Assembly (NCBI GenBank): GCA_014360655.1
Contig: JACIXC010000009.1
Location: 1-64,000 of the forward strand
Length of the DNA stretch: 64,000 bases
Direction: 5' to 3'
Source: Actinomycetota bacterium
GTDB taxonomy: Bacteria > Actinomycetota > Geothermincolia > Geothermincolales > RBG-13-55-18
Shown one piece after another: positions 1,363 through 52,749 of this stretch. The notes beneath the pieces were generated by a model. That model did no database searches and had not been told where the DNA came from. It worked only from the letters and a program-made list of their open reading frames with translations. The position numbers and the translations under genes are program-made. How positions within the stretch are numbered: position 1 is the first letter of the stretch; each line of letters opens with the position of its first letter.

Positions 1363-2178
1363 TCAGAAGGGACGCCCGCGGTCCTTCTGCATGCCGGCGA
1401 AGCTCTTCCCCAGGCCCACGATGCCGAAAAGAAAATCCGTCATCTTGGGCAGCCCGAGGCCGCGCACGAAGGCGGTAAGCCGCATTATCGCCCGCGGCAC
1501 GAAGATCTCCGCCTTGTTCTTCTTCACCGCGTCGACGACGGTGTCCGCCACTTTCTGGGGGTCCACCCAGCCGGTGAGTATGGGCGGCTTGGAGCCCTCG
1601 AACATCCCCGTAGCGATGTAACCGGGGTTGACGATGGTGAAGTTGACCCCGCTACCGCGCAGCTCCTGGCGTATGCAGTCGGTGATGCCGATGAGGGCGA
1701 ACTTGGTGGCGCAGTAGGGTCCCAGGAAAGGGGCCGCCACCTTGCCGGCGACGGAACACATGTTGACCAAGTGGCCGCAGCCGCGCCGCACCATGCCCGG
1801 CACCGCCGCCTGCATCATCCAGACTTGCCCTAGGTAGTTGACGTCGGTGATGCGACGGTAGTGCTCCTCGGGGGTGTCCAGCACCGTCTCGTTCATCGCC
1901 ACGGCGGCGTTGTTTACGAGCACGTCGATGGGGCCCAGCTCCGACTCCACCTGCTCGACCACGCGGAAGCATGCTTCGCGGTCGGAGATGTCCAGGAGGT
2001 AATGGTGGACGTCGTACCCCGCGTCGCGCATCTCGCCGGCGGTCTTCTCCAGCTCCGCGGCGTCGATGTCGGTGATGGCCACGCGCGCCCCCTCGCGGGC
2101 GAAGTTCATGGCTTGCAGTCTGCCCATCCCCCGAGCCGCGCCGGTGATGAGCACCACCTTCCCATTGAGATCCTTCAT
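1363..2178 (-). CDS. SDR family NAD(P)-dependent oxidoreductase
   Basis: A 271-residue classical short-chain dehydrogenase/reductase. It has the Rossmann glycine motif TGAARGMG near residue 13, the NNAA motif, and the catalytic YxxxK as Tyr155 and Lys159 (YCATK). The ATG at 2178 follows GAAGGGGATAAAT; upstream in-frame starts lack a ribosome site. It is divergent from the enoyl-CoA hydratase at 2419, so it may act on a hydroxyacyl or keto intermediate of the same pathway, but its substrate cannot be read from sequence. The C-terminal region is basic and may associate with membranes. Confidence 0.88.
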   Translation of the reverse strand: MKDLNGKVVLITGAARGMGRLQAMNFAREGARVAITDIDAAELEKTAGEMRDAGYDVHHYLLDISDREACFRVVEQVESELGPIDVLVNNAAVAMNETVLDTPEEHYRRITDVNYLGQVWMMQAAVPGMVRRGCGHLVNMCSVAGKVAAPFLGPYCATKFALIGITDCIRQELRGSGVNFTIVNPGYIATGMFEGSKPPILTGWVDPQKVADTVVDAVKKNKAEIFVPRAIMRLTAFVRGLGLPKMTDFLFGIVGLGKSFAGMQKDRGRPF

Positions 2179-2418
2179 ATTTATCCCCTTCCCCCCATCG
2201 CTTTTCTTACCGCAAGTGTACCTTGAGGATCGCTCTTCCACAAACCCCACCCTTACTACGTTATCAGAGGGGCAGATGTCCGGTGAGCTGGTGACCGATA
2301 CACGCCAGGGTACCTCTTGAGGCGCCGAGGGGGATATTGGCCGCGCATACGGGGCGTGCGGATGGTTTGATTATATAATGGTCAGTGGCACCGGTTTCCC
2401 GCCAAGGAGGTTCTCGAG

Positions 2419-45206: not shown

Positions 45207-45956
45207 TCAGTTGTCGGCGAAGGCGGAGAGAGCCGCTCCCAGCGCCCCCACCAGCTGCGGGTTTTCGGGCACCAGCAGCGGCAGGCCCAGCCTCTCTTCC
45301 AGCAGGGCACGCAGGCAGGGGTTGTTGGCCACCCCGCCGGCGAAAACCAGTTCCCGCTGCACGCCCACCCTCTTGAGCAGGGCGGAGGCGCGGTCGCATA
45401 TGGCCTCGTGCAGGCCGCGGGCGATGAGGGGGCGCGGGGTGCCGCGGGCGATGAGGCCGGTGACCTCCGATTCCGCGAAGACGGTGCACATGCTGGAGAT
45501 CTTCACCTCTCCCTCCGCCTGCAGCGCGGTCTTCCCCATCTCCTCGAGCGACAGGCCCAGGGCGGCGGCCATGACCTCGAGGAATTTCCCCGTCCCCGCG
45601 GCGCAGCGGTCGTTCATCTGGAAGTCCACGACCTTGCCGCCCGGTCCCACGGAGATGGCCTTGGTGTCCTGCCCACCTATGTCCAGTATGGTGCGCACAT
45701 CAGGAAAAATATGGTAACAACCCAGGGCGAAGGCCTTGATCTCGGTGATCACCCTGTCCGCGAAATTGGCCTGGGCCAGGTGCCGGCCGTAACCGGTGGC
45801 TACCAGGAGGTCGTACTCGTGTTGCGCCAGCAGGCGCCGGCACTGCTCCAGGGGATCGAAGGTGGTGTCAACCACCTCGCTTGTGAGGACCTCGCCGCCG
45901 TCCATCGCAACGAAGCCGATGGTGCGCGATCCTATGTCCAGTCCGGCTACGGCCAT
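45207..45956 (-). CDS. Acyl-CoA dehydratase activase (BcrAD/BadFG family ATPase)
   Basis: A 249-residue ASKHA-fold ATPase. AGLDIGSRTIGFVAMD is the phosphate-binding loop, LDIGGQDTKAI the second loop, NDRCAAGTGKFLEVMA and KISSMCTVFAESEV supply the two cysteines that bridge a [4Fe-4S] cluster between subunits, and VFAGGVANNP is the adenosine motif. It couples ATP hydrolysis to a low-potential electron delivered to a dehydratase or double-cubane enzyme, here the gene just upstream at 46209. ATG at 45956 follows AGGAGG by five bases. Confidence 0.92.
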   Translation of the reverse strand: MAVAGLDIGSRTIGFVAMDGGEVLTSEVVDTTFDPLEQCRRLLAQHEYDLLVATGYGRHLAQANFADRVITEIKAFALGCYHIFPDVRTILDIGGQDTKAISVGPGGKVVDFQMNDRCAAGTGKFLEVMAAALGLSLEEMGKTALQAEGEVKISSMCTVFAESEVTGLIARGTPRPLIARGLHEAICDRASALLKRVGVQRELVFAGGVANNPCLRALLEERLGLPLLVPENPQLVGALGAALSAFADN

Positions 45957-46208
45957 CCCCACCTCCTGCGCGTAGTGACCCGTTTCCCGGTAACCTTAGT
46001 TTCCACGTCGCTTCCGTGTATGCATCGGGAATATGCGCTGGGAACCTGTTACCGCTTTCCCCGCGGTTTACTCCGGCATATCCCTTAACGGCATCAATGT
46101 ATACGAACCGCCCTGCCCGTGCAATCCCGCGAACCTGGAGATCGGACGCCCGTGGTTAGAGGAGAAGATCCCGGGGAGGGCGCGGGCCACTCCCCGGGAG
46201 CAACGATT

Positions 46209-47495
46209 TCATACCGGCCTTTTCGTCTCCACCATCTCGATGAGCGCCTGCACCCGGGTGGTGAGCTGCCCCACGTCCTCGGAGCTGTAGTCGGTTTCCA
46301 GGTAGAGGAAGGGTACGCGTTCCTTCTCCAGCTCCTGCTGCACGCGGAAGGCCTCCACCGTGTAGGGATCGCAGAACTGCAGCGCGTAATAGATAACGGC
46401 GTCTATGTCGTAGTCGCGCACCAGCTCCCGGATGTGTTCCAGCCTCTCACGGTTGGGGGTGAAGACCGCGCAGTCTATCTCGAGGTAGCGGTCCGCGATG
46501 GCGTCCAGCATCCCCTCCAGGTCCGCGGCGGCCTCGTCCACGAGGTGGCGGAAATAGCGTATGCCGGTGCACATCTCGTCCATGGCCACCAGCCCCCCGG
46601 AGGTCTCTATGATGGTGGGCACCTTCCAGTTCGGGATGGCCATGGGGCAGCCGGAGAGGAGGATGCGCGGGCGGTGAGAGCCGCCGATGGAGATGCCCTG
46701 GTCCCTTCTCTCCTCCAGCTCGTCGCAGAGGGCGTTGACCTTCTCCGCCAGGCGCACCGGGTCGTCGTAGAAGGCGATCTGGTTGATGAGGAGCGCGTCC
46801 CTGCCGGAGATCACCGGCGGGTCGCACTTGCGCAGCTCGGCGAGGCGCAGCAGGGCCTTGCGCTTTTCGTTGATCACGCGCGCTGCGTTACGCAGCGACT
46901 CCTCGTCGATCTTTTTACCCGCGACCTCCTCTAGGCGCGCCGCCAGCCTCCGGACCTCCTCGCGCCAGAGGCGGCGGTCTGCCTCGTCCTTGCGCTGCGG
47001 CAGCTCCATGGTATGCACCGGCTGGAACTGGTCGAGTATCTCGTAGTATTTCTTCTTGCCGTCGCAGGTGGTCTCGCCCACCAGCAGGTCGCAGGATTCT
47101 ATGTACGGGCATACCTTGGCCAGCTTGAAGCCCAGGGAGGACTTGATGAGGGCGCAGAGGTTGCGCGGGAGGTACTGCTCCGCCGCTTCCTCCGCCACCT
47201 GCGCCCCGGCACAGAGGCCCACGCAGACGCCACCCGCGGCGAGGATCAGTTCCTCGGGCACGTAGGTGCAGAAGGTGCCCACCACGATGCCCCCGGCCGC
47301 GCGGTGGTCCACGAGCTCCTTGATGCGCAGGCCGTGCACCTCCGAGAAGACGAAGTCGAAGTACTGCATCCCCTCGGGGCGGTTCTCCTGGCCCAGGATG
47401 GATTCCTGGTAAAGGGGCGGCAGTACCTCCAGGAGCCCGTCGTGGGCGGCGAGGTCCAAGCCCAGCTTCTCCCACATCTCACGGTAGTCTGCCAT
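46209..47495 (-). CDS. Double-cubane-cluster-type anaerobic reductase (2-hydroxyacyl-CoA dehydratase family)
   Basis: A 428-residue HgdB/FldC-type iron-sulfur protein. GTFCTYVPEELILAAGG, CPYIESCDLLVGETTCDGKKKYYE, LLSGCPMA and ALQFCDPY carry the conserved cysteines. CDGKKKYYE and the single-subunit-plus-activase layout match the double-cubane-cluster protein group, which reduces small molecules at very low potential (family knowledge), rather than two-subunit 2-hydroxyacyl-CoA dehydratases. AGGAGGTAAGGA precedes the ATG. Its natural substrate is unknown. The activase is 250 bases downstream and DUF3343 is upstream. Confidence 0.85.
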   Translation of the reverse strand: MADYREMWEKLGLDLAAHDGLLEVLPPLYQESILGQENRPEGMQYFDFVFSEVHGLRIKELVDHRAAGGIVVGTFCTYVPEELILAAGGVCVGLCAGAQVAEEAAEQYLPRNLCALIKSSLGFKLAKVCPYIESCDLLVGETTCDGKKKYYEILDQFQPVHTMELPQRKDEADRRLWREEVRRLAARLEEVAGKKIDEESLRNAARVINEKRKALLRLAELRKCDPPVISGRDALLINQIAFYDDPVRLAEKVNALCDELEERRDQGISIGGSHRPRILLSGCPMAIPNWKVPTIIETSGGLVAMDEMCTGIRYFRHLVDEAAADLEGMLDAIADRYLEIDCAVFTPNRERLEHIRELVRDYDIDAVIYYALQFCDPYTVEAFRVQQELEKERVPFLYLETDYSSEDVGQLTTRVQALIEMVETKRPV

Positions 47496-47548
47496 TCCTT
47501 ACCTCCTTTTCCCGTTCATGTTCTTGCTTGACCGATAAGGGGGCCTTG

Positions 47549-47678
47549 CGCCTTTTCGGTGTGCCGGCCGCTCGCTGCAGGCCGGACCCCGGGAGCGGCC
47601 CGTGCAACCGCTATGGTTTGCTCGCCTTAAGCTACGGCTTGCTCACCTTTTCCGTGTGCCGGCCTTTCGCCGCAAGCC
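47549..47678. repeat. Two 35-base imperfect direct repeats
   Basis: 47549-47583 and 47644-47678 share CCTTTTC.GTGTGCCGGCC and CGC.GCA.GCC, matching at about 29 of 35 positions. They sit between the DUF3343 and double-cubane genes. Purpose unknown. Confidence 0.65.
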
Positions 47679-47737
47679 GCCGCGCTGCCCGGGCCCTTGA
47701 GCCTGGTCCCTGCCGTCCGTTAAACGGCCGCAGCCGT

Positions 47738-48040
47738 TCACCCGACCTCTTTGTCCTCGCGCTCTTCCCGTTCACCGGCGGGCTCCCCTCCCGCTCCTCC
47801 CGCCCAGCGGCTGCGGTAGGGCTCGACCCCGGCAACCGCTACTCCCGCCGCCTCGAGGGCCTCCCGTATTCCGGCGGCGTCGGCGGGATTTATGCGCAGG
47901 GAGATGCCGCAATCGACGCTGAACTCGCGCGGTGTGTTTATGACCGCATACCCGATGCCCATGTGTTTGAGCACCTTCTCGGCGCTCAGGGCATGGTGTG
48001 TAGAGTGGAAGAGCACCACGTAACAGTTAAAATCATTCAT
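47738..48040 (-). CDS. DUF3343 domain protein
   Basis: A 100-residue protein of the DUF3343 family, a TusA/YedF-like small fold proposed to carry sulfur or selenium. YVVLFHSTHHALSAEKVLKHMG is the first half and the CGISLRI cysteine motif is conserved. It occurs next to double-cubane reductase/activase genes and class V desulfurases in many anaerobes, as here (the desulfurase is at 39374). There is no ribosome site: TATACC is two bases before the ATG, so the mRNA may be leaderless. The C-terminal tail is acidic and disordered. Confidence 0.83.
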   Translation of the reverse strand: MNDFNCYVVLFHSTHHALSAEKVLKHMGIGYAVINTPREFSVDCGISLRINPADAAGIREALEAAGVAVAGVEPYRSRWAGGAGGEPAGEREEREDKEVG

Positions 48041-48948: not shown

Positions 48949-49485
48949 ATGGAGGAGATCGGTGCCAGGCTGCGTGAAGTGAGGAACGCCAGGAAGCTTT
49001 CCATCCGCAAGGTCTCCGAGGCCACCGGTTTCTCCGTCTCCTTCTTGAGCAGGCTGGAGACGGGCAAGAGCAGCATCACCGTCAAGAATCTCCTGAAGCT
49101 GCTGCAGTATTACGGGGTGACCCTCGCGGACATCTTTTCGGATGCGGCCGGGAGGAAAATTACCTTTCGCAGGGAGGACAGGAAGAGAGTCGACAGCCCC
49201 GGCGAAGTGACCCTGGAACTGCTCGTAGACGAGCCCGGCATCGCCATGGAAAGCCTGCTGGGCACCTTCCAGGCGCGCGCCAAATACAAGGATCGTATAG
49301 AGCACGGAGGTGAGGAGTTCGCCATGGTGCTCAAGGGCGAATTCCGCTTCGAGCTCGGCGATACTGCTCACCACCTCAGGGAGGGGGATTGCGTCTATTT
49401 CCAGGGCGAGCTGCCGCACAATTGGGAGAACCTCACGGACGGGGAGGGATGCCTGCTCATGGTCATGACTCCCCCGAGCGTATGA
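48949..49485 (+). CDS. XRE family regulator with C-terminal cupin domain
   Basis: A 178-residue DNA-binding protein. The helix-turn-helix lies at residues 5-60 (IGARLREVRNARKLSIRKVSEATGFSVSFLSRLETGKSSI). A cupin at 100-175 has EHGGEEFAMVLKGEFRFEL and the metal/ligand histidine in GELPHNWEN. Such regulators sense small molecules and often control adjacent catabolic or stress genes. AAAGGAG precedes the ATG. It is 386 bases upstream of the heliorhodopsin gene, on the same strand, and downstream of the peptide gene. The regulon is unknown. Confidence 0.88.
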   Translation: MEEIGARLREVRNARKLSIRKVSEATGFSVSFLSRLETGKSSITVKNLLKLLQYYGVTLADIFSDAAGRKITFRREDRKRVDSPGEVTLELLVDEPGIAMESLLGTFQARAKYKDRIEHGGEEFAMVLKGEFRFELGDTAHHLREGDCVYFQGELPHNWENLTDGEGCLLMVMTPPSV

Positions 49486-49871
49486 TGCGTGTTCCTTCGG
49501 AGTGACCGCCTGTCTCGCGCGGATCGCAAGGGTTGATCTCGACGCTCTTCCTGCATCACCCGGCACACCCTTACACCACCCGGCACACACCGATATTCCC
49601 CATACAGCCCGACCATCGCACCCAAGCGCCTCGGCCGACGGTCGCGTTTCACGCGGAACAGGCCGGTTCCGGCCATACCCTTGCCGGGTCGCGGATCCGT
49701 CGCGCGCGGGCGGTCACGCCGCTCGGAAAACGCGCCCCCGCACCACCAGTCGTCCCGTACACGGGGGTCGCGGCAGTTTCCGCGCGCCCCTTGATCCGCG
49801 GCATGTTTAGTGCCGGCGGGAGAAGGCAAAAATAGGAAACAACCGTATCGTTCAGGGGAGAGGAGGCAGAG
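49486..49871. other. Intergenic region upstream of the heliorhodopsin gene
   Basis: About 385 bases. CACCCGGCACAC occurs twice, 18-20 bases apart near 49557-49585. I see no convincing promoter for the heliorhodopsin gene, and no ORF with a ribosome site. Confidence 0.4.
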
Positions 49872-50681
49872 ATGGCGGAGGAGATAGTCGCCGAGAGCAC
49901 CGGTGCGGGAGCAGCGGAGGAACCTTACAGGAAGCTCCGTATCTACAACGGGGTGATGGCCGTTTTCCACCTCGTGCAGGGTTTGCTCATGCTCGCCCTT
50001 AGCAACGATTTCTCGCTGCCGGTGACCACCAACTACCTAAAGGCCGACCCGGCGGATTTCAGCGGGCCGAGCATGCCCAGCGTGGTGGGCCACCTGAGGA
50101 TCGGGCCCCTGGTGGCCGCCTTCCTCTTCATGAGCGCCCTGGCTCATTTCCTGCTCACCCTGCCGCGCATCTACGAGTGGTACGTGCGCAACCTGAAGAA
50201 GGGGGCAAACTACGCCCGCTGGGTGGAATATTCTTTCAGCGCCTCGCTCATGATCGTGATCATCGCCATGCTCTCCGGCGTCTACGACCTGAGCACCCTA
50301 ATCCTCCTCTTCTTCATGAACATGATGATGATCCTCTTCGGGTGGATGATGGAGCTGCACAACCAGAGCACCGAGAAGACCAACTGGACTTCCTTCTACT
50401 TCGGCTGCCTGGCGGGGATCATCCCCTGGGTGGTGATCGCCCTCTACTTCTTCTCCGCGGTGTCCCGCCCGGAAGCCGGGGTGCCTACCTTCGTCTATTT
50501 CATCCTCCCCATCCTCTTCGTCTTCTTCAACTGCTTCGCCGTCAACATGGTCCTGCAGTACAGGAAGGTGGGTAAGTGGCGGGATTATCTCTTCGGCGAG
50601 AAGGTCTACATCCTGCTCAGCCTGCTGGCCAAGTCCGCCCTGGCCTGGCAGGTCTTCGGCGGCACTCTGCGCGGGTCGTGA
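49872..50681 (+). CDS. Heliorhodopsin
   Basis: A 269-residue protein with seven predicted membrane helices. Helix C contains RWVEYSFSASLMIVIIAMLSGVYDL, with Glu119 as the Schiff-base counterion position and the SFSAS serines of the heliorhodopsin pocket. Helix G contains LLAKSALAWQVFGGTL, with Lys254 as the retinal attachment. The segment is distinct from type-1 rhodopsins. Heliorhodopsins occur in monoderm bacteria, archaea and viruses, have an inverted membrane orientation, and no settled role. GAGGAGG precedes the ATG. No retinal-synthesis gene is visible here. Confidence 0.92.
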   Translation: MAEEIVAESTGAGAAEEPYRKLRIYNGVMAVFHLVQGLLMLALSNDFSLPVTTNYLKADPADFSGPSMPSVVGHLRIGPLVAAFLFMSALAHFLLTLPRIYEWYVRNLKKGANYARWVEYSFSASLMIVIIAMLSGVYDLSTLILLFFMNMMMILFGWMMELHNQSTEKTNWTSFYFGCLAGIIPWVVIALYFFSAVSRPEAGVPTFVYFILPILFVFFNCFAVNMVLQYRKVGKWRDYLFGEKVYILLSLLAKSALAWQVFGGTLRGS

Positions 50682-51017: not shown

Positions 51018-52749
51018 TCAATCCCTACCGCGCCGACCCTTCGGCCTGCGCAGGCGGCGCGAGCCCGCCAGGGAGAGGATCCCCAGCGAGATGCCCAGCA
51101 TGAGCAGGGCCGTCCCGCTTCCCGACCCGCAGGGTGACACCACGGTGAACCCGCCATTGAGCCAGCTCTCCGTTCCGTCCGGGTTCGATACAACAACGTC
51201 GTAGAGGCCGGGGGCCGCACCCATGAGGTTGAGGGTGCAGTGGATCCGTTCCTGCGTCATAACGTTCACGTTGGAAGCATTGATCACCGTGGAGCCCTTC
51301 ACCAGCATCACCCTGGCCCCTGGGAGAAACCCGGTCCCCGTGACGGTCACGTTATGGAACGGGTTGAACTGGTAGCCTCTCGTCGGGTAGATGCTCTCGA
51401 CGCTGAGGGCGATGTTCTTGTAAGTGAAGACGAGGGGGTCGGAGGTCCCGCCCGGCGTGGTGACGTAGACGGACACTTGGGCGAAGGGGCTGCCGATCGC
51501 GGGGGCTGCGCACACGATCTCGTTTTCGGACCAGGAGACGATGCCGGCGCGCAGGAGTCCGAAGGTCACGAAGCCGTGCGCGGACGAGGTGCCGAAACCG
51601 CTGCCGGTCAGGGTCACCGTCTCCCCGTCCCTGCCCGTATCGGGCGACAGGGTGTCCAGGACCGGATCCTCCCCCAGGTAGCCCCCGCTGGTGGTATGCA
51701 GGATGGTCCCGGAGGTCCCCACCGCCCAGGCGATGTCCCCGTCAACGGCGCTTATGTCGAGCATGACCACGTCGGTCGGGATGGTTTGCTGCTGGCACCA
51801 GCTCAGGCCCCCGTTTTCGGTGCGGGCGATCTTTACGTTGGGGTTTGCGTTTCCGCCCACCATCCAGATGTCATTTGCGTCGAACATGATGGCGCCGCCG
51901 GGATACGCCGTCATGCTGCATTCGAGGGTGTAGAAGAGATTGGGGTTCTGCCAGCTTGACCCCCCGTCGGCGGTCTTCATGCAGCACGGGGCGAACATGG
52001 GCGGAAAACCGTCGTAGACCCTGAAGACGCCCCAGGCCATGGCATTCTGCCCGTCGCAGGCGGCGATGCACAACCAGTTCTTGTCCGCGGGTCCGGCGGG
52101 TGCCCAGTTTTTGCCGCCGTCGGTGGTCCTGAGGACCACTCCGGCGTTGCCCTGGAAGGGACTTTCGCCGCCCGCCGCCCATGCTGTAAGGTCATCCACG
52201 GCGGAAATGGAGAATATGGCGTACGCGTGGCCAGAGACCTGGTGCTCCCAGGTACCGCCGTCGTCCGCGGTCTTCATGATGAAACCGCCCGACCCGACGC
52301 CCGTGGCGCCCGCCACCCAGCAGGTCTTATCGTCGAGGGCGGCGATGTCGTGCACGGTTGAGCTCTCGGGGATCATCGCCGCTTCCCAGGTTTTGCCGCC
52401 GTCCTCGGTGTGCAGGAGGTTACCCCCCTCGCCCCCCACCCAGGCTTCATCGACGCTCACCGCCGAGACGGCGTTGAGCTGCGAGGTGACTCCCGCGTCC
52501 AGCGTCTTCCAGGTGGTACCGCCGTCGGTGGTGCGCAGGACGGTACCTGCGGCTCCCACCGCCCAGGCGGTATTGTGATCGACGGCGGAAACGGAGCGCA
52601 GGTCCTCCTCGGTTCCCGATTCCTGTTCCTGCCACCCGTTCCGTTCGCCGTCCCGCGAAAGCGCCCCCGCGGCGGTCGGGGGCGGCAAGGGCGAGGGAGG
52701 CCAGCAGGCAGAGGAGAAGAAACACGGAAAACAGCCTGAGAAGTCTCAT
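51018..52749 (-). CDS. Exported BNR-repeat/TIG protein, frameshifted near its N terminus
   Basis: The body (52688-51018, 556 residues) has Ycf48-like BNR/WD repeats (AVDHNTAWAVGAAGTVLRTTDGGTTW and at least six more) to about residue 340. Two IPT/TIG domains follow, then PCGSGSGTALLMLGISLGILSLAGSRRLRR, a cysteine-glycine motif, membrane helix and basic tail like a sorting signal. The signal peptide (MRLLRLFSVFLLLCLLASLALAA, ATG at 52749 behind GGGGGTGAGAAC) is in another frame. Removing one C from the five-C run at 52682-52678 would join them. It may be a sequence error or a real inactivation. Confidence 0.78.

Follow-up and report, generated by a model that had tools for sequence, protein, structure and literature searches.

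A heliorhodopsin gene conserved in an anaerobic actinomycetotal lineage without detectable retinal-synthesis genes

The heliorhodopsin locus

Heliorhodopsins (HeRs), or type-3 rhodopsins, are inverted retinal-binding light-sensor proteins. The stretch of actinomycetotal DNA analysed here, a 64,000-nucleotide piece of one contig to which we refer as the window, carries an open reading frame of 269 amino acids that begins with ATG, as read from the sequence, and is preceded by a Shine–Dalgarno-like element (Table 1). An XRE-cupin regulator gene lies 386 nt upstream on the same strand. The opposite strand carries, further upstream, genes whose order is conserved; they encode a double-cubane reductase, an acyl-CoA dehydratase activase and a small Se/S carrier-like protein. 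Also on that strand, on the other side of HeR, a gene encodes a beta-propeller (YCF48/BNR-like) protein that has a TIG domain and ends in an anchor-like C-terminal tail; it evolves fast (dN/dS 0.37-0.52), and the label 'photosystem II assembly factor' would mislead in this host.

Table 1. Positions of the features discussed; those without a locus prefix (L) or genome prefix (G) are positions of the window.
Feature	Location	Strand	Basis or remark
Double-cubane reductase, activase, Se/S carrier-like protein	45207-48040	-	
XRE-cupin regulator, 5' neighbour, probably no operon partner	48949-49485	+	HTH_3 and Cupin_2
Shine–Dalgarno-like GAGGAGG, 5 nt 5' of ATG	49860-49866	+	direct sequence reading
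Heliorhodopsin gene, 269 aa	49872-50681	+	PF18761 E=7.1e-102; NF038020 353 bits; TaHeR E=1e-82; AF2 and Foldseek
His33 (48C12 H23), Schiff-base-cavity histidine	49968-49970	+	alignment; Leu in 10/22 class relatives
His92 (48C12 H80), Schiff-base-cavity histidine	50145-50147	+	alignment; Leu in the same 10 relatives
Arg116, cavity arginine (TaHeR R105, 48C12 R104)	50217-50219	+	invariant in class
Glu119, Schiff-base counterion (TaHeR E108, 48C12 E107)	50226-50228	+	alignment; invariant in 22/22 class HeRs
Glu243, partner of cavity arginine (TaHeR E227)	50598-50600	+	invariant in class
Ser250, TM7 SxxxK motif	50619-50621	+	alignment; invariant
Lys254, retinal-attachment lysine (TaHeR K238, 48C12 K241)	50631-50633	+	alignment; invariant
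Beta-propeller protein	51018-52688	-	
Photolyase of the window genome (G000, contig C15)	L126:315-1688	-	
PF03013 glycosylase 3' of HeR	L105:8333-8680, L103:8180-8533, L109:6782-7162	-	three photolyase-negative genomes
HeR of Leu/Leu form (G004, G008, G010, G012, G014, G017, G019, G024, G027, G029)	L091, L094, L096, L097, L099, L101, L104, L106, L107, L109		
Decayed HeR remnant of G015	L102 about 1905-2300		
Broken HeR of G091	G091:C10:97012-97723		

In the bacterial family to which the genome belongs, the gene order activase, double-cubane reductase, Se/S carrier-like protein, HeR, hydrolase, glycerol kinase and AMP-binding ligase is conserved, and HeR keeps its position in most loci. The XRE-cupin gene sits within this generally conserved block; of the 14 family loci with HeR, 10 have the regulator directly 5' of it. 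As an operon partner it is a weak candidate: the gaps range from 72 to 516 nt, and no match to it was obtained in G001 (same genus), G002, G003 or G007. Thus, the statement in the preliminary description that the regulator precedes HeR on the same strand is correct, but a functional link is not borne out, given the 386-nt gap and the lack of a match in the same-genus genome. No tight operon partner was found at any of the family loci compared, where HeR stands alone.

The gene product is a bona fide, intact HeR, as the preliminary description had proposed. It matches the Pfam family PF18761 (Heliorhodopsin) with 340 bits against a cut-off of 26.7 bits, residues 22-266 covering the complete 242-position model, and scores 353 bits against the NCBIfam HeR equivalog NF038020 (cut-off 100 bits). 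Among solved structures, TaHeR is the nearest (PDB entry 6is6, E=1.2e-82, 56% identity), and 48C12 is also matched (E ~1e-66, 47% identity). An AlphaFold2 (AF2) model with an input of 37 HeRs (pLDDT 87.6) has seven transmembrane helices and the loops typical of HeRs, with AB-loop β-strands E48-53 and E70-76 and the BC helix H98-109. In Foldseek comparisons the model reaches a TM score of 0.84-0.90 against TaHeR (6is6) and the top ten matches are HeR structures throughout; type-1 rhodopsins rank after them, with query-normalised TM scores of about 0.6 or lower. A better match to a non-rhodopsin seven-helix family, which had been named as a possible objection, does not emerge: the sole other Pfam match, ABA_GPCR, lies below its cut-off.

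The residues expected of a retinal protein are in place. Glu119 and Lys254 align with Glu108 and Lys238 of TaHeR, and the feared loss of either was not seen. A TM7 SxxxK motif marks HeRs, and the window protein has it with the Schiff-base lysine (S250-LLA-K254); its TM3 Glu-counterion motif (Glu119, Ser123, Ile130) is an ESI variant of ESL. Assignment to the type-1 microbial rhodopsins fails, as these are recognized by TM7 DxxxK and an Asp counterion, where the window protein has Ser250 and Glu119. The published cavity and pocket residues Arg116, Tyr120, Phe219, Glu243, Ser250 and Trp259 are all found, and these six, together with Glu119 and Lys254, are invariant across 22 HeRs of the class. 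At the level of the alignment, this shows an ordinary member of the family with an intact Lys/Glu/His/Arg cavity. The predicted cytoplasmic segments (N-terminus, BC, DE and FG) hold about 11 Lys/Arg residues versus 4 outside, a positive-inside count that would favour an N-terminus inside and a C-terminus outside the cell.

Anaerobic host, retinal supply and selection

The genome had been called anaerobic-looking from the window, and at the genome level (2.97 Mb, 99.96% complete) the host is confirmed as an anaerobe. Neither a haem-copper oxidase (COX1) nor a cytochrome bd oxidase was found in it, CdhC of the acetyl-CoA synthase complex is encoded, and the double-cubane reductase and its activase lie inside the window itself. 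The homologues of its HeR with 71-89% identity belong to 'Candidatus Solincola' and other Actinomycetota MAGs.

The search for retinal-synthesis genes that the preliminary description had suggested detected no Blh/BCD, phytoene synthase or RPE65-type gene. Phytoene synthase (PSY) and the RPE65-type oxygenase were each found in 0/29 genomes (the window genome and class relatives), and BCD/Blh in none of 31 class genomes, the window genome included. As positive controls, the PSY and RPE65 searches matched known genomes and the BCD family was found in two relatives from the phylum. Since there is no phytoene synthase, no carotenoid is expected for cleavage, and de novo production of retinal by the known routes would therefore be unlikely in this host. 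The sole sampled HeR genome that also carries Blh (BCD) is G091, in which HeR is broken across two reading frames.

Nevertheless, the opsin is maintained despite the lack of a visible chromophore source in the host, as follows from its selection and its family-wide presence. HeR is present in 14/15 genomes of the family and 23/31 of the class. In G011, the one family genome that lacks it, the adjacent XRE-cupin gene found no match either, so an assembly gap is possible there. Pairwise dN/dS of HeR within the family is 0.09-0.17, the same range as for housekeeping neighbours, and these codon comparisons show strong purifying selection on the window opsin. What relaxed selection looks like is shown by G015 of the same order, whose HeR remnant carries an internal deletion, shifted frames and a replaced Lys codon.

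A light sensor in an anaerobe had been described as unexpected. A HeR does lie in an anaerobic genome, but 'unexpected' is an overstatement in view of its spread through the family and the class and of published cases. HeRs of strictly anaerobic Firmicutes have been reported (PMC8612252), HeR genes have been described from Bathyarchaeota whose retinal pathway is not complete (PMC7110647), and for the TaHeR host, reported to lack retinal synthesis, uptake of external retinal via a membrane fenestration has been proposed (PMC9385722). The window gene therefore adds to a known kind.

Two forms of the Schiff-base cavity

In 48C12, His23 and His80 are regarded as the proton-accepting pair, and their mutation slows the photocycle (PMC9726877). 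The window protein has both histidines. In the class alignment, both are replaced by leucine in 10 of the 22 HeRs and a single replacement does not occur (0/22); sampled HeRs from outside the class retain both, except that of G057 (Leu/His). Two further cavity positions co-vary with the Leu/Leu form, with A89G and S123T in 8/10. We found no mention of natural His23/His80 variants in the openly accessible literature, a scope outside which the main subfamily survey (Kovalev 2020) lies.

A HeR tree that leaves out these cavity columns needs two His-to-Leu changes. A single inherited Leu/Leu clade costs 39.8 log-likelihood units and is thus disfavoured, yet the AU test does not reject it (p=0.079). 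In the tree of neighbouring genes, the His/His genome G006 is nested among the Leu/Leu genomes G012 and G014, and therefore either a third change took place or the gene was replaced. The Leu/Leu form probably has at least two origins or has spread by gene replacement. It does not track photolyase, which is present in 4/10 Leu/Leu versus 7/12 His/His genomes.

UV repair, possible role and known systems

The window genome encodes a photolyase, on another contig than HeR. This enzyme appears to be class II-like; its same-genus orthologue scores 529 bits (E=1e-158) against TIGR00591 phr2, just below the cut-off of 550. Across a phylum-wide sample of 96 genomes, whose kinship is not fully corrected for, photolyase (PF00875) occurs in 22/36 genomes with HeR and 10/60 without (Fisher p=1.4e-5). 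Within the class the counts are 11/23 and 0/8 (p=0.028), and stratification by family gives a CMH p of 0.0016. In addition, three genomes, all photolyase-negative (G021, G026 and G029), have a PF03013 pyrimidine-dimer glycosylase gene 12-28 nt 3' of HeR on the same strand; the G026 copy matches PF03013 with E=1e-25, and the copies of the other two genomes cluster with it as homologues. A Trichococcus HeR (TfHeR) has been reported to bind and stimulate a class II CPD photolyase (PMC9769723). Owing to the photolyase co-occurrence and the adjoining glycosylases, light-linked UV defence can be put to the test as a role of HeR, and DNA repair is its best-supported specific output on what is circumstantial evidence. 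Sunlit habitat alone could produce the association with photolyase, and against a UV role stand the relatives RBG_16 and SURF_21 (loci L035 and L036), which keep intact HeRs without photolyase and whose names suggest a dark aquifer or deep-mine origin. Physical coupling of HeR to photolyase is unsupported in the window family, where HeR lacks a close operon partner and the photolyase gene lies on a separate contig.

Strong purifying selection combined with the lack of detected retinal-synthesis genes makes it likeliest that HeR is a photosensor whose retinal is scavenged. We give a probability of roughly 0.6 to such a non-pumping sensor whose output aids in coping with light or UV damage. The protein would sit in the membrane as a canonical HeR, with its N-terminus predicted to be cytoplasmic and its C-terminus extracellular. 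The opsin would take up retinal or an analogue that phototrophs or aerobes nearby produce, in line with the proposal for the TaHeR host; no gene for retinal uptake was identified. Upon isomerization by light, a proton would leave the Schiff base via Glu119 to the cavity of His33 and His92. Changes in the positively charged cytoplasmic face would then act on a partner protein, with no ions being pumped. As the weaker part of the scheme, the output in this lineage may help an oxygen-sensitive cell to handle light, most plausibly UV-damaged DNA.

A retinal-binding sensor could instead address something other than repair, such as transporters, metabolism or a two-component partner. Such a 'promiscuous' HeR is conceivable, if on balance doubtful. 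The published partners are diverse (PMC8612252): OcHeR pairs with an ABC transporter (PMC11109279) and AbHeR with glutamine synthetase (PMC9529153). In G016, G027, G048 and G074, the ATPase and permease of an ABC transporter are encoded as a pair close to HeR, and HeR is alone at the family loci. Nevertheless, the family has no conserved partner, and the association with UV repair is the sole cross-genome signal that was tested and found.

Two further readings depart from a conventional retinal sensor. The first, which we consider unlikely, is that HeR has been repurposed in this carotenoid-less class: the Leu/Leu proteins would run a photocycle without the His acceptor pair, signal by another route or even work without retinal, with the window protein as their His/His counterpart at that locus. 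The second, which is quite improbable, is a light-independent role as a membrane, pH or ligand sensor, with the opsin kept without chromophore. The lack of detected retinal-synthesis genes in the class genomes searched, the intact HeRs in MAGs whose names point to dark subsurface sites and the ten relatives without either cavity histidine would all fit it; however, Lys254, Glu119 and the aromatic pocket of Tyr120 and Phe219 are invariant in 22/22, a pattern difficult to account for unless a chromophore is bound as a Schiff base. Finally, a non-functional passenger, recently acquired or decaying as the broken copy in G015 and the class members without HeR might suggest, is rejected by the low dN/dS, and its presence in nearly all family genomes at a mostly conserved position makes it very improbable.

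The function of HeRs is unsettled, and here a class of anaerobes keeps an opsin under strong selection without a visible retinal pathway. HeRs of both the His/His and the Leu/Leu kind occupy one genomic slot and offer a natural comparison for asking whether retinal is scavenged and whether signalling depends on the proton path through His23/His80, and the link to UV-repair genes supplies a specific function for testing.

The scavenged-retinal sensor has relatives among known systems. The MORN-HeRs of strictly anaerobic Firmicutes (PMC8612252) likewise occur in anaerobic monoderms, but the window HeR has no N-terminal MORN repeats. The genome of Trichococcus flocculiformis (PMC9769723) also encodes both HeR and a class II-type photolyase; there the two share an operon, whereas in the window genome they lie on different contigs. 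48C12 (6su3, 6su4, 6uh3) comes from a freshwater actinobacterium and not from an anaerobe without a detectable retinal pathway, yet its E107, K241, S237, H23, H80, Y108, F206 and W246 are conserved in the window protein. TaHeR (6is6, 7u55), from the Thermoplasmatales archaeon SG8-52-1, differs in its archaeal host, in its AB loop and in an Asn where the window HeR has a 48C12-like Ile154. It is nevertheless the closest counterpart in structure, with H23, H82, R105, E108, E227 and K238 all conserved in the window HeR, and its host shares the reported lack of retinal synthesis (PMC9385722).
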